From NCBI GenBank assembly GCA_018067055.1, contig JAGPVK010000134.1, positions 1 through 13,893 of the forward strand: a DNA stretch of 13,893 nucleotides, in the 5' to 3' direction. The position numbers and the translations under genes are program-made. Shown here piece after piece: positions 3,988 through 10,566 of the stretch. The notes below the pieces were generated by a model that saw nothing but the letters and a program-made list of their open reading frames with translations, had not been told where the DNA came from and searched no databases. The DNA comes from Sphingomonadales bacterium. GTDB taxonomy: Bacteria; Pseudomonadota; Alphaproteobacteria; Sphingomonadales; Sphingomonadaceae. The first letter of the stretch is position 1, and every line of letters starts with the position of its first letter.

Positions 3988-4755
3988 TCAGCGACCACCG
4001 AACCGTCGTTCGCGATGGCCGAATGACTGCAATGCTTTTTCAAGTTCTGCCTTGTCGAAATCTGGCCACAGCGCGTCGGTAAAATATAGTTCGGAATAAG
4101 CGGCCTGCCACAGAAGAAAATTCGACAGACGCAACTCACCCGATGTTCTGATCAGCAAATCGAGCGGTGGCAGATCCGCCGTATCCAGCGCATCCGAAAT
4201 ATCACTGAGATTGATCGCTTCCGGCTCGAGTTCACCTGATCGCACTCTGCCGGCAATATGCTGGACCGCACGAAGCATTTCGTCCTGCGCACCATAGTTG
4301 AGCGCCACTGCCAGCGTCATCTTGCTATTTTGGGCGGTTTTTTCGATCGCATTGTCGATCATCGCAACAATATCGGAATCCAGCGCCCTGTAGTTGCCAA
4401 TCACCTTCAGTCGCACGCCATTTTCAACAAATTCGTCGATATCCGACTGAATATACTGGCGCAGCAATCCCATGAGATCGCTGACTTCCTCTTGTGGCCG
4501 ATTCCAGTTTTCCGATGAAAAGGCATAGAGCGTCATCACTTCGATACCCATTTCGCCGGCCACGCGAACAATATTGCGAACCGCCTCGACACCCTTTTTG
4601 TGACCAAGAGCGCGCGGCAGATGCTTGCGCTTCGCCCAGCGTCCATTGCCATCCATGATGATGGCAATATGGCGAACGCCATATGTCGGGCCGGATATCC
4701 CGGCCGTGGCTTGCACCGAATCTGCAGCACCGCTCTTGGAACGCGCGAGCTTCAC
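3988..4755 (-). CDS. uppS: Isoprenyl transferase, undecaprenyl diphosphate synthase type
   Basis: A cis-prenyltransferase that extends farnesyl diphosphate with isopentenyl diphosphate to the C55 carrier lipid used for peptidoglycan and O-antigen. The 255-aa protein shows IIMDGNGRWAK (32-42) with the catalytic Asp at 35, LYAFSSENWNRP (76-87), and the C-terminal block RTSGELRLSNFLLWQ followed by YSELYF, which holds the pyrophosphate-binding Arg residues. The start is a GTG whose GTGA overlaps the frr stop, and no better ATG lies between it and the first conserved motif. About 27 residues precede the conserved core, slightly more than in E. coli. Its place next to cdsA and dxr is the widespread order. 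The call is secure; the chain length of the product is taken from the family. Confidence 0.95.
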   Translation of the reverse strand: MKLARSKSGAADSVQATAGISGPTYGVRHIAIIMDGNGRWAKRKHLPRALGHKKGVEAVRNIVRVAGEMGIEVMTLYAFSSENWNRPQEEVSDLMGLLRQYIQSDIDEFVENGVRLKVIGNYRALDSDIVAMIDNAIEKTAQNSKMTLAVALNYGAQDEMLRAVQHIAGRVRSGELEPEAINLSDISDALDTADLPPLDLLIRTSGELRLSNFLLWQAAYSELYFTDALWPDFDKAELEKALQSFGHRERRFGGR

Positions 4756-8103: not shown

Positions 8104-8743
8104 AATAGTTCTCCTTATCCGGTTATGCCTCTGGAAAGCTGAGAACCTCAAACGACCTGAAAGGCCGCCATTGGCACCGGTATGAGTGCTTTCCATGTGG
8201 AATGAGCGTGCCGTTAAGACGAAGCGGAGCAAAATGCAACCACAAATTGGCGAAGTAAGAGAGCGGCAAGGGGCACGGAGGGTGCCCTGACGTGCAAATA
8301 TCTGATTGAGTTAAAACGGTTCGGTCGAGTTAGCGCCTGTCGGTGTCAAGTTAAACGAGCACTCCCAAAGATAATTGGCTGTTTGCCTATGCGGATAGGT
8401 ATATTCCCCGAGTAAAGTTCATACTGGATCAGTGTTACAGGCGATCACCATTGGTGTTTCGGTGCTGCTTGATGGACGTTTTCCATGTCATTGTTGTGAA
8501 CAACGCTAATCTCTCGTTCTCACGACTGCCTGTCCGATCGCATTTTCAAGAGAAAGAATCCAAATGTTAGACTGGTTGGCCGAATCGCGAACGGAAAGAG
8601 GTCAAAAAAGACTGCGACTACAGACTGATACTCTCCTCTTTCCATCATGCTCCATTCGGCAACACTGCTCCGGCGCCGTTCCATCATTATACGGTCAACA
8701 ATGATATGTTGCTCCGGATGCTTCCGGTAAAGCGCTCGCCCTG
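8104..8743. other. 640-bp divergent intergenic region (rpsB leader plus cytochrome gene upstream region)
   Basis: No supported gene. The rpsB side (8104 to about 8290) should hold the rpsB promoter and leader; I see no clear -35/-10 pair. It contains an 8-bp complementary pair (8132-8139 with 8188-8195) and a GGGCAC/GTGCCC hairpin (8271-8287). The middle and right part holds several short perfect inverted repeats: CCTAT/ATAGG (8386-8399), ATGGA/TCCAT (8472-8486), GTTGT/ACAAC (8493-8504) and CCGGA/TCCGG just before the cytochrome gene. A 46-codon frame (8564-8704) and a 78-codon reverse frame (8520-8756) look non-coding. It could hold regulator binding sites or decayed sequence. Confidence 0.6.
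8132..8195 (-). promoter_or_regulatory. Long-range pairing in the rpsB 5' leader
   Basis: In the minus-strand leader, TGGAAAGC (complement of 8188-8195) is perfectly complementary to GCTTTCCA (complement of 8132-8139), closing a 48-nt internal segment. The segment ends about 16 nt before the AAGGAG ribosome binding site of rpsB. S2 represses its own mRNA in other bacteria through leader structure. Whether this element does so here is inference; an 8-bp match in a leader of this size can also arise by chance. Confidence 0.3.
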
Positions 8744-9328
8744 ATGGCCAGGTCACCTACTCTACTCGGCCGTGAAGTCTTACCCTTCTATGCTTCGCTG
8801 CTTGTGCTGGTCGGCGTGGCTCTTTTGCTCGATACATTGCTGCACCTGGGCAATATGGTCTGGATCGGTCGTTATCTGGGTATCCCGGGAATTCTCCTGA
8901 TCCTCGCATCCGCGCGCTATTCGATGCGCAAGCATAAGCTGATTTCTTCGGGAAAGCCCGGCAAGCTGTTGATCGAACACGAGCGGTTGGCCTGGCTCGG
9001 GTCGTTGCTGGTACTTGTCCATGCCGGCATTCATTTCAACGCGTGGCTGGGCTGGCTAGCAGTCGTCGCCATGTGCATAAATGTCGCCAGCGGCTTGACC
9101 GGTAAATATCTGCTGGGTCGCGCCCACAAACGCTCCGCTGCCAAGCGTCGAGCACTGGCGGATGCAGGCCTGTCGACAGATGAAATCGCAGAGCGCATCC
9201 ATTTCGACAGCCTTACGTTTAATCTCATAAAACAGTGGCGGGTGATCCACGTACCAATCACGCTGGCATTTGCCGGGCTCGCGCTTGCTCATATCATCGC
9301 GATCAGTCTGTTCTGGAACTGGAGATGA
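8744..9328 (+). CDS. Membrane protein, putative diheme cytochrome b subunit
   Basis: A 194-aa integral membrane protein with five predicted helices at about 14-35, 41-57, 79-101, 103-123 and 166-191. The loop after helix 4 is strongly basic (RAHKRSAAKRR), placing it in the cytoplasm and the C terminus in the periplasm. Two His pairs, H79/H93 in helix 3 and H169/H183 in helix 5, are each spaced 14 residues, the classic arrangement for two bis-His b hemes stacked across a membrane; H97 is extra. I do not recognise a named family with certainty; it resembles short cytochrome b or ferric-reductase-like membrane domains without flavin or NAD domains. The stop overlaps the start of an eight-heme cytochrome c gene (ATGA), so the two are most likely partners, probably moving electrons from quinol to the periplasm. 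No Shine-Dalgarno precedes the ATG; CTG is the only alternative nearby. Confidence 0.78.
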   Translation: MARSPTLLGREVLPFYASLLVLVGVALLLDTLLHLGNMVWIGRYLGIPGILLILASARYSMRKHKLISSGKPGKLLIEHERLAWLGSLLVLVHAGIHFNAWLGWLAVVAMCINVASGLTGKYLLGRAHKRSAAKRRALADAGLSTDEIAERIHFDSLTFNLIKQWRVIHVPITLAFAGLALAHIIAISLFWNWR

Positions 9329-10065
9329 AGCACCGCAAACTTCTGGCAGGGGTTATCATCGTGCTTGCGGCACTGATCGCATTGTTGTTCGTTTATCCGC
9401 ACCAGATGATTGCACCCGGAGCGCTGATCCCGGCCCATAGCCAGTTACAGCAGGATTGCTTCGCCTGCCACGCGCCATTACGCGGTGTCTCATCCGCGCG
9501 GTGCATCGCATGCCACGTGCCAGCCGAGATCGGGATCAGGACGACCAAGGGCCTCCCGGTTAGCAATCATTCGCAAACAACCGCATTCCATGCCGATTTA
9601 AAAGAGAGCAACTGCACCGCCTGCCATAGCGATCATGCCGCGGTCTTATTAGCGCAAAGCAACGCAAAACCGTTTAATCATGGCTTGCTCAAGCCAAGCA
9701 CGGCAGCGCAATGCACCTCCTGCCATGCAAAGCCCAAGGACGGCCTGCATGACACAATCATCAGCGGATGCGCGCAATGCCACACCACAAGAGCATGGAC
9801 GCCTGCAAATTTTGCGCATGAAAAATATTTCAGACTAGATTCCGACCATAATGTCGCTTGCACGACATGCCATAAGGGTAATGAGTTCAAGACGGTGACC
9901 TGCTATGGCTGCCATGAGCATCAGCAGACGCAGATCATTGCCGAGCATGCCGAGGAAGGCATTCGCAACATTGACAATTGCGCCCGCTGCCACCGCAGCA
10001 GCTCCGGGGAAGGTGGAGAACATGGCGGCGAGGAGCGCGAAGGCGGCGAGCACGATGACGATTGA
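9325..10065 (+). CDS. Membrane-anchored octaheme c-type cytochrome (cytochrome c3-like)
   Basis: A 246-aa protein with an N-terminal membrane anchor or signal (basic HRK, hydrophobic 6-24) and a periplasmic part with eight CxxCH heme sites starting at residues 45, 60, 97, 130, 149, 179, 193 and 219. Outside these motifs at least ten His remain (38, 82, 89, 104, 119, 142, 165, 175, 199, 208), enough for bis-His ligation of all eight hemes. The segment FAHEKYFRLDSDHNVACTTC (163-182) follows the F-x-H, F-x-L, H, CxxCH pattern typical of cytochrome c3/c7-like multiheme proteins. The last 22 residues are low complexity (Gly, Glu, His, Asp). I chose the ATG at 9325, in the ATGA overlap with the cytochrome b gene, over an upstream in-frame extension lying inside that gene. 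Likely role: periplasmic electron wire for the b subunit; the acceptor is unknown. Confidence 0.85.
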   Translation: MKHRKLLAGVIIVLAALIALLFVYPHQMIAPGALIPAHSQLQQDCFACHAPLRGVSSARCIACHVPAEIGIRTTKGLPVSNHSQTTAFHADLKESNCTACHSDHAAVLLAQSNAKPFNHGLLKPSTAAQCTSCHAKPKDGLHDTIISGCAQCHTTRAWTPANFAHEKYFRLDSDHNVACTTCHKGNEFKTVTCYGCHEHQQTQIIAEHAEEGIRNIDNCARCHRSSSGEGGEHGGEEREGGEHDDD

Positions 10066-10261
10066 CCGGGATTGGCGCGCGCCGCTTAACCGATAAGCAT
10101 GGCGAGAACGAAGCGAACAACCTGTGCTAATGCTCGCTTACGGGAGCCAGCGGCGCGTCCCTAATATCATAATTGCAAATGCTCTCGAGCACATCGGATA
10201 GACTAAGAACACAGCTTTTCTGAATCCCACCTTCTTTTTGGGGGCGTGTTCCAAATAGGGC
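10066..10261. other. Noncoding stretch after the cytochrome operon
   Basis: About 200 bp with no supported gene and no convincing terminator for the cytochrome pair. A perfect GC palindrome (GGCGCGCGCC, 10074-10083) and a short GCTTA/TAAGC hairpin (10084-10098) lie just after the stop, but neither has a T tract behind it. The right part is AT-richer and leads into the candidate promoter of the small gene. Confidence 0.5.
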
Positions 10262-10291
10262 TTGACAATGAGAACAGATATGGAACATTAA
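10247..10291 (+). promoter_or_regulatory. Candidate promoter with flanking inverted repeat, upstream of the small membrane protein gene
   Basis: A perfect -35 hexamer TTGACA lies at 10262-10267. The -10 is weak (CATTAA at 10286-10291, 18-nt spacer). The perfect 7-nt arms TGTTCCA (10247-10253) and TGGAACA (10281-10287) bracket the -35 and could be a regulator site. The start codon is 33 nt further on. Promoter and operator functions are inferred from sequence only. Confidence 0.35.
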
Positions 10292-10323: not shown

Positions 10324-10566
10324 ATGCTCAGCATCGCTATCTCAACTTTTTTCGCACTCGCGTTTCTTGGCTCTGTCATCGTCATCGCGATGATGTTTTT
10401 TCAATATCGGGACAGGATTGCGAGCGTCATTCAAAATGAGCTGCGGGTTGATCCTGCTGAAGCCATTTTCCCGTCATCGGTCTATCGCCACCGGACAGTC
10501 AAATCACCTCAGCTCATGATCCAGCATCGCTCGCTGCAGCCCGTTCCGCTGCGCGCTGCCGCTTGA
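10324..10566 (+). CDS. Small single-helix membrane protein, function unknown
   Basis: An 80-aa frame. Residues 3-26 form one clean transmembrane helix (IAISTFFALAFLGSVIVIAM), followed by FFQYRDRI and a cytoplasmic-type basic tail with several Pro and Arg. Reasons to believe it: a helix with a sharp polar boundary, an ATG with a perfect TTGACA upstream, and a location in an otherwise empty gap. Reasons for doubt: no clear Shine-Dalgarno, and the last 53 nt overlap the 3' end of the convergent pssA, so the C terminus is constrained by another gene. I recognise no family; no function is proposed. Confidence 0.55.
   Translation: MLSIAISTFFALAFLGSVIVIAMMFFQYRDRIASVIQNELRVDPAEAIFPSSVYRHRTVKSPQLMIQHRSLQPVPLRAAA

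Follow-up and report, generated by a model that had tools for sequence, protein, structure and literature searches.

The window studied here is a 13,893-nt stretch of DNA from a Sphingomonadales bacterium (contig JAGPVK010000134.1 of assembly GCA_018067055.1), in which two overlapping genes encode a five-helix, probably diheme cytochrome b (hereafter b) and an octaheme cytochrome c (hereafter c). The pair is best read as the core of an inner-membrane electron conduit with interchangeable input modules, whose copy in the window has lost most of its module, a cytochrome b561, and a low-oxygen box; a probability of roughly 60% is assigned to this reading. The system is notable for combining a constant pair with swappable feeder genes, a low-oxygen box in the relatives and a relic of b561 in the window itself. 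Gene content, co-occurrence, ligand conservation, the relic and the boxes upstream of the relatives are direct observations.

The two genes keep together across all samples. Relatives of c were sought in one genome per species, which yielded at least 531, and the best 80 of these serve as named loci (L021–L100); b lies directly upstream of c in all 80. A phylum sample of 398 genomes searched with b gave matches in 29, five of them weak (E-values from 1e-15 to 1e-4) and not counted as b. Strong b (E ≤ 1e-50) was present in 24 genomes at 25 loci, with c adjoining at every one, and the reverse search of the 398 genomes with c (E ≤ 1e-30) returned the same 24 genomes plus a partial match in G330. 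The family sample of 149 genomes gave 17 matches to b, eleven of which were weak and were not counted; full b was found in six genomes, each time with c adjacent. A regular occurrence of b and c apart, which the first-pass annotation had named as refuting its proposal, is ruled out by the named and phylum loci. That annotation, made from the window alone, had proposed that b, of diheme type, and the octaheme c form an electron-transfer pair, and this constancy upholds the proposal together with the conserved His residues and heme-binding motifs described below, the function itself being predicted. The relatives are widespread and, by record titles, include Accumulibacter, Rhodoferax, Ferrigenium, and sphingomonads; two metagenome-assembled contigs (L028 and L077) are labelled Bordetella parapertussis, a species label that looks doubtful. 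One genome (G011) carries, besides a set of upstream reductase, b and c (L004), a broken second b with three stops (L019) and no c nearby.

The gene directly upstream of b is variable. Among the 80 named loci it encodes a reductase in 58 and a cytochrome b561 in four, neither partner was detected in 17, and the position is cut by a contig edge in one (L091). The reductases, of which 57 were scored as adjacent and one (L037) was included manually on account of an over-long b frame, are mostly 410–430 amino acids (aa) in length, with a few cut by contig ends, and have an N-terminal hydrophobic helix. Two representatives matched the families NAD_binding_1, Fer2, and FAD_binding_6, the last below the cut-off in one of them; among solved structures the reductase stands closest to flavohemoproteins, dioxygenase reductases, and NqrF. 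The reductase also adjoins 12 of the 25 b loci of the phylum sample. Apparent reductase–b fusions at L037, L059, and L100 were rejected as over-long frames. The earlier description of a two-gene module with no flavin or iron–sulfur subunit is therefore not supported as the natural form of the system: most relatives place a reductase of the flavin adenine dinucleotide (FAD)/nicotinamide adenine dinucleotide (NAD)/[2Fe-2S] type upstream of b, and the window retains a b561 relic.

On a tree of b with 81 rows (17 of the 98 alignment rows, database proteins without a locus, were omitted, and 11 of the 81 are labelled unknown), the three partner labels together need 10 changes versus 28.1 in shuffles, which is consistent with several losses of the reductase. 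A reductase trace with the N-terminal helix and the Fer2 end (E 3e-17) precedes b at L110 (2080–2427, minus strand), and perhaps another of 20 residues (E 4e-4) at L065. Upstream of the window b no such trace was found, and no reductase matched there or anywhere in the genome carrying the window, an 80% complete draft.

In the closest kin of the window the upstream partner is a b561. Alignment of the upstream DNA with that of the window revealed an intact b561 gene before b in L021, L022, and L003, the protein of L021 matching PF01292 at E 1.4e-30; b561 also precedes b in L026 and L056, so that L003 adds to the four cases among the named loci. CybB of Escherichia coli, from the same family, is a quinone-linked cytochrome, and a quinol route is plausible for the branch of the window as judged from these sequences. 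Directly before the window b, the best match of the b561 profile scores 6.2 bits (E 0.0022) over all six frames and 11.7 bits in a search of 498 nt. The relic that it marks has a TGA stop (8742–8744) that overlaps the ATG of b, and the same junction is found in L021, L022, and L003. The second-best match, in another frame, is tentative, with −2.8 bits over the whole window and 2.9 bits in the 498-nt search. Because only pieces from the ends of b561 match, the window appears to hold a former b561–b–c operon whose b561 lost its middle, tentatively so for the N-terminal piece. The b561 profile is narrow and misses a PF01292 protein of another cytochrome b561 subfamily, which lies upstream of a distant b in L123 (837–1430, plus strand).

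A regulatory signature accompanies the genes in many relatives. TTGAT-N4-ATCAA is the FNR/FixK-type consensus, and it was searched for within 300 nt of the first gene, whose start was estimated, with dinucleotide shuffles providing the expectation. Enough upstream DNA was available for 73 loci (72 of the 80 and the window, eight being omitted because the upstream DNA was short or the reductase cut), and 66 remained after removal of seven near copies. At one mismatch or fewer, a box precedes 18 of the 66: 13 of 47 reductase loci (0.45 expected), one of three b561 loci (0.02), four of 15 loci with neither partner (0.05), and not the window (0 expected). At up to two mismatches the counts rise to 23 of 47 (3.8 expected), three of three (0.25), and 10 of 15 (1.15), the window again having none (0.25). 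The boxes mostly lie 45–120 nt ahead of the estimated start, and in an earlier form of the test the same windows placed at other positions of the loci yielded 0.7 of 47 and 0.3 of 19. Similar enrichment was not seen for a CRP box, for three further palindromes, or with the spacing set to 3 or 5, and these were rejected as explanations of the upstream motif. L021, L022, and L003 carry the box before b561 at two mismatches; the window has no box better than three mismatches, and its FNR-type half-sites number five versus 6.2 expected. The best reading of these sequences is that the pair often lies behind an FNR/FixK-type low-oxygen box, which the window would have lost. There is about an even chance that the b/octaheme-c core with its swappable inputs is switched on at low oxygen and provides alpha- and betaproteobacteria that are otherwise aerobic with an electron outlet not yet characterised.

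The AlphaFold2 model of b, built on 98 sequences (predicted local distance difference test, pLDDT, 83.1), has five long helices; an earlier model from 21 sequences was too poor (pLDDT 65.6). His79, His93, His97, His169, and His183 are invariant across the 98 aligned sequences, as are Ser116, Gly117, and Gly120. In the model, H79-x13-H93 lies on the third long helix and H169-x13-H183 on the fifth, and these two HX13H pairs would fit two b hemes. Loops 2–3 and 4–5 are rich in Lys/Arg (five and eight residues), which suggests that they are cytoplasmic. No Pfam family matched b at E ≤ 1, the ferric reductase domain PF01794 included, and NCBIfam gave one chance match at 0.68; among five other b homologues scanned, PF01794 reached 0.0079 in one, below the cut-off. 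Comparison of the b profile with solved structures gave nothing at E ≤ 1, and VIA-align listed no family clearly above noise. The profile of the window b also matches a 308-aa protein that adjoins a frame with 24 CxxCH (L124/L189, 97.7% hhalign probability).

The eight CxxCH motifs of c exceed anything in 20,000 residue shuffles, which never gave more than three. Four Pfam families of the c3, c7, class III, and paired-CXXCH types match above the cut-off, with MtrC/MtrF-like and DmsE-like matches only below it; Pfam and NCBIfam listed no octaheme reductase profile (HAO, OTR, MccA) for c, nor a NapC-type profile for b or c at E ≤ 1. Solved structures match weakly, for example flavocytochrome c3 at 0.003, the profile matches ranging from 1e-4 to 0.005. 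Across 21 aligned c proteins, nine His outside the CxxCH motifs are invariant, so that all eight hemes could have bis-His ligation. The protein is putatively membrane-anchored, its N-terminus being hydrophobic and a cleavage site not evident by eye. Among the best 120 homologues of c, 73 have eight CxxCH, 45 have ten, one has seven, and one has thirteen. Some genomes also have a c with ten or twelve CxxCH (L103, L105–L107, L110, L111, L113, and L114), and the aligned ten-heme homologues carry their extra hemes in an additional block. On the proteins themselves the first-pass annotation was accurate: the two open reading frames (ORFs) with their coordinates and 4-nt overlap, the five helices with paired His, and the eight CxxCH sites of c all stand.

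We infer heme loading, direction, donor, and acceptor of the proposed conduit from these features. Electrons from the reduced cofactor NAD(P)H or from quinol would enter an input module, pass to two stacked b hemes, with H79/H169 towards the cytoplasmic side and H93/H183 towards the periplasmic side, and then reach periplasmic acceptors by way of the octaheme c, anchored on the periplasmic side. As input, most relatives would use the NAD(P)H–FAD–[2Fe-2S] reductase and the window's near kin a cytochrome b561 of the quinol type, with no module detected in others. The window lineage would once have held b561–b–c between rpsB and pssA and later have lost most of b561 and the upstream box. With both lost, the window b would have to accept electrons directly from quinol or from a donor encoded at another site, unless the conduit idles. 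Should the reading hold, an outlet under oxygen control that delivers reducing power from NAD(P)H or quinol into the periplasm would be present in many alpha- and betaproteobacteria, with consequences for iron cycling, metal tolerance, and the redox balance of wastewater bacteria. Because different input modules occur naturally on a common core, donor specificity can be tested directly.

The b heme layout would be as in ferric reductases and NADPH oxidases. SpNOX and MsrQ share with the family the diheme HX13H arrangement and, for most relatives, an FAD/NAD donor module; unlike them, b has five helices, no Pfam ferric-reductase match, a separate [2Fe-2S] reductase, and a multiheme c as acceptor. 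CbcL and CymA/NapC likewise join an inner-membrane quinol side, putative here, to multiheme c. CbcL is one fused protein and CymA/NapC are single-helix tetrahemes.

The pair was earlier placed in a core locus, which applies to the neighbours only. Within the genus, b is present in one of 32 genomes, the window's own, and was not found in the other 31. Homology by blastn stops on the left near 8203–8248 in all four genus relatives compared and restarts on the right near 10252–10262 in three of them, in L149 only at pssA. The rpsB–pssA interval is nearly empty in G550 (about 109 bp; L148, about 4136–4245), holds a different gene over 2.5 kb in G538 (L147, 4207–6708), and spans 5.1 kb in G540 (L146, 2221–7362), with genes that by eye resemble those for a regulator, a TonB receptor, and a large protein without assignment. 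The window pair thus occupies a variable site within a core neighbourhood. At the b–c junction (ATGA), the ATG of c starts at 9325 and the stop of b occupies 9326–9328.

Table 1. Features of the b–c region of the window
Feature	Start	End	Strand	Basis
Accessory insert between rpsB and pssA (approximate limits)	8249	10252		DNA without counterpart in genus relatives
Possible N-terminal b561 relic (tentative), other frame	8608	8670	+	Second-best b561-profile match, six frames; profile positions 9–29
C-terminal b561 relic	8673	8744	+	Best b561-profile match in the window (8673–8732); profile positions 168–187 of 188
Five-helix, probably diheme cytochrome b, 194 aa; H79-x13-H93, H169-x13-H183, SGLTG 116–120	8744	9328	+	ORF, alignment, model
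Octaheme cytochrome c (c3/c7 type), 246 aa; hydrophobic N-terminus as putative anchor, acidic tail rich in Gly and His	9325	10065	+	ORF, Pfam, eight CxxCH

The loss of b561 and of the promoter region raises the possibility, rather doubtful but deserving attention, that the window copy is a non-functional remainder in which b and c are decaying. The relic, the box that kin carry before b561 and the window does not, and the confinement of the pair to a single genome of the genus all point this way. Against decay, both frames are intact with all heme sites present and the junctions kept, and other long contigs carry proteins 98–99% identical to the window b. The ratio of nonsynonymous to synonymous divergence (dN/dS) relative to L021 and L003 is 0.11–0.14 for b and 0.13–0.16 for c, and with dS above 1 it speaks for past constraint and not for present function. 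A scan of the window for promoters and terminators gave one and three sites, where shuffles gave 2.1 and 2.4. The window's draft genome yielded no CcmF; since this gene is present in all 24 near-complete genomes of the genus, the absence probably reflects incompleteness.

A self-sufficient two-gene pathway from quinol to octaheme c, ending at extracellular or periplasmic acceptors, is considered unlikely. It draws on the 17 named loci with no detected partner, on the boxes placed right before b in such loci, as if the operon started with b, and on a search for the reductase elsewhere in 20 of the 21 genomes lacking it upstream (L023 was left out; four of the 20 have b561). None of the 20 holds an orthologue: the best match reached 236 bits versus 623–696 in all four controls, and nine gave nothing. 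The window, however, had an upstream partner and then lost it, and the narrowness of the b561 profile means that partners may be overlooked. An extracellular ending is further disfavoured because no gene for a porin or outer-membrane cytochrome adjoins the pair in the ORF list, and no other ORF of porin size lies between rpsB and pssA in that list, no porin profile having been run; porin-less pairs of a similar kind were also judged less likely to serve extracellular transfer in the sections of PMC5566968 (He et al. 2017) that treat them.

Those porin-less pairs of iron oxidisers are the nearest printed description that was found, noted there and not characterised as far as those sections go. 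He et al. describe a multiheme c, mostly without porin, together with a shorter HX13H protein, most such pairs having another redox protein (PMC5566968). They resemble the present family in the five-helix protein, HX13H on helices 3 and 5, and a multiheme c neighbour, but their membrane gene lies downstream of the cytochrome whereas b lies upstream here, and the likeness is one of description only. Swappable input modules and oxygen boxes occur in relatives of the window pair and are not part of the sections on such pairs. The inner-membrane proteins of PCC3 and PCC4 in the same paper have five helices and the motifs SGxxG and WX3HX13H; the window b likewise has SGxxG on helix 4 and an HX13H motif on each of helices 3 and 5, and its profile finds the 308-aa protein next to 24 CxxCH mentioned above, but WX3H is limited to helix 5 here, and the PCC3 and PCC4 clusters include porins and, for PCC3, cytochromes of much greater size. 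The claim that the system is undescribed must accordingly be narrowed: broadly similar pairs have been published for iron oxidisers, while no paper on the reductase/b561–b–octaheme module was found in the literature searched (supplementary tables excepted), the passages of PMC10734462, PMC8238504, and PMC4307346 not describing it. A "novel quinol reductase" of Accumulibacter (PMC4930944, PMC2289847) was considered as a candidate for the same protein, an identity that the passages on it do not establish.

Distant cousins of the trio reside on plasmids. The window b as query matched nothing there, and weak matches to c occur in 48 plasmid records (53 with a cousin as query), belonging to a cousin reductase–b–c trio whose c is about 32% identical to that of the window. 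This order is found in six of the seven plasmid regions viewed, b being assigned by position in one; for the seventh (Gluconobacter) it is absent from an incomplete table. Profile comparison with the SYK-6 cousin gave 100% (E 5e-45) for the reductase and 91% hhalign probability over 98 columns for b. By eye, five aligned cousin b proteins retain H-x13-H-x3-H and H-x13-H, and five cousin reductases have a His/Met-rich part ahead of the membrane helix. The c proteins of the trios at L150–L155 have seven CxxCH.

In an Alteromonas plasmid, the cousin trio stands directly upstream of a NiFe hydrogenase cluster, which invites the opposite direction: c would take electrons from a periplasmic donor such as H2 or a metal ion, and b would pass them to quinone or, via the reductase, to NAD(P)+. 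Relatives also occur in Ferrigenium, an iron oxidiser, and inward flow is modelled for PCC3/PCC4 in the passages of PMC5566968 on those clusters. We nevertheless consider inward flow improbable. The trio (L152, on a distant branch) corresponds in its reductase–b–c order to the orf1–cyt set next to the HynSL hydrogenase of Alteromonas macleodii, with orf1 read here as b and cyt as c from gene order, and, according to the relevant part of PMC3102683, Orf1 and Cyt are dispensable for maximal hydrogenase activity in E. coli. Unlike the window, the Alteromonas set has seven CxxCH, a longer b and reductase, and a hydrogenase neighbour. FNR-type boxes suit an electron sink at least equally well.

A role in metal handling, with the conduit feeding periplasmic reduction of a metal such as copper or protecting from metal stress, is very unlikely: it is favoured by metal-related genes near six of seven plasmid trios (a MerR-type regulator, a copper-binding four-helix protein, a multicopper oxidase, and a metal sensor or transporter), by the His/Met-rich N-termini of the cousin reductases, by a resistance–nodulation–division (RND) efflux cluster seen by eye beside the pair at L190, and by a cation-efflux exporter near 14 of the 80 named loci (10 within 1.5 kb), whereas the plasmid branch is distant and the ORF list shows no evident metal gene next to the pair in the window.

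Besides the reductase and the cation-efflux exporter, the commonest neighbour clusters are a P-type cation ATPase, near 12 of the 80 named loci (nine within 1.5 kb), and sensor kinases, near 23 (four within 1.5 kb), and no conserved acceptor gene emerged from the neighbour clusters of these loci. A separate ferric-reductase/FAD protein is encoded near some loci, Accumulibacter among them. Beyond the pair in the window, a hydrophobic ORF of 80 aa (10324–10566, plus strand), which matched no Pfam family at E ≤ 0.01, overlaps the pssA 3' end on the opposite strand and has counterparts of 45–78% identity in all four genus relatives.
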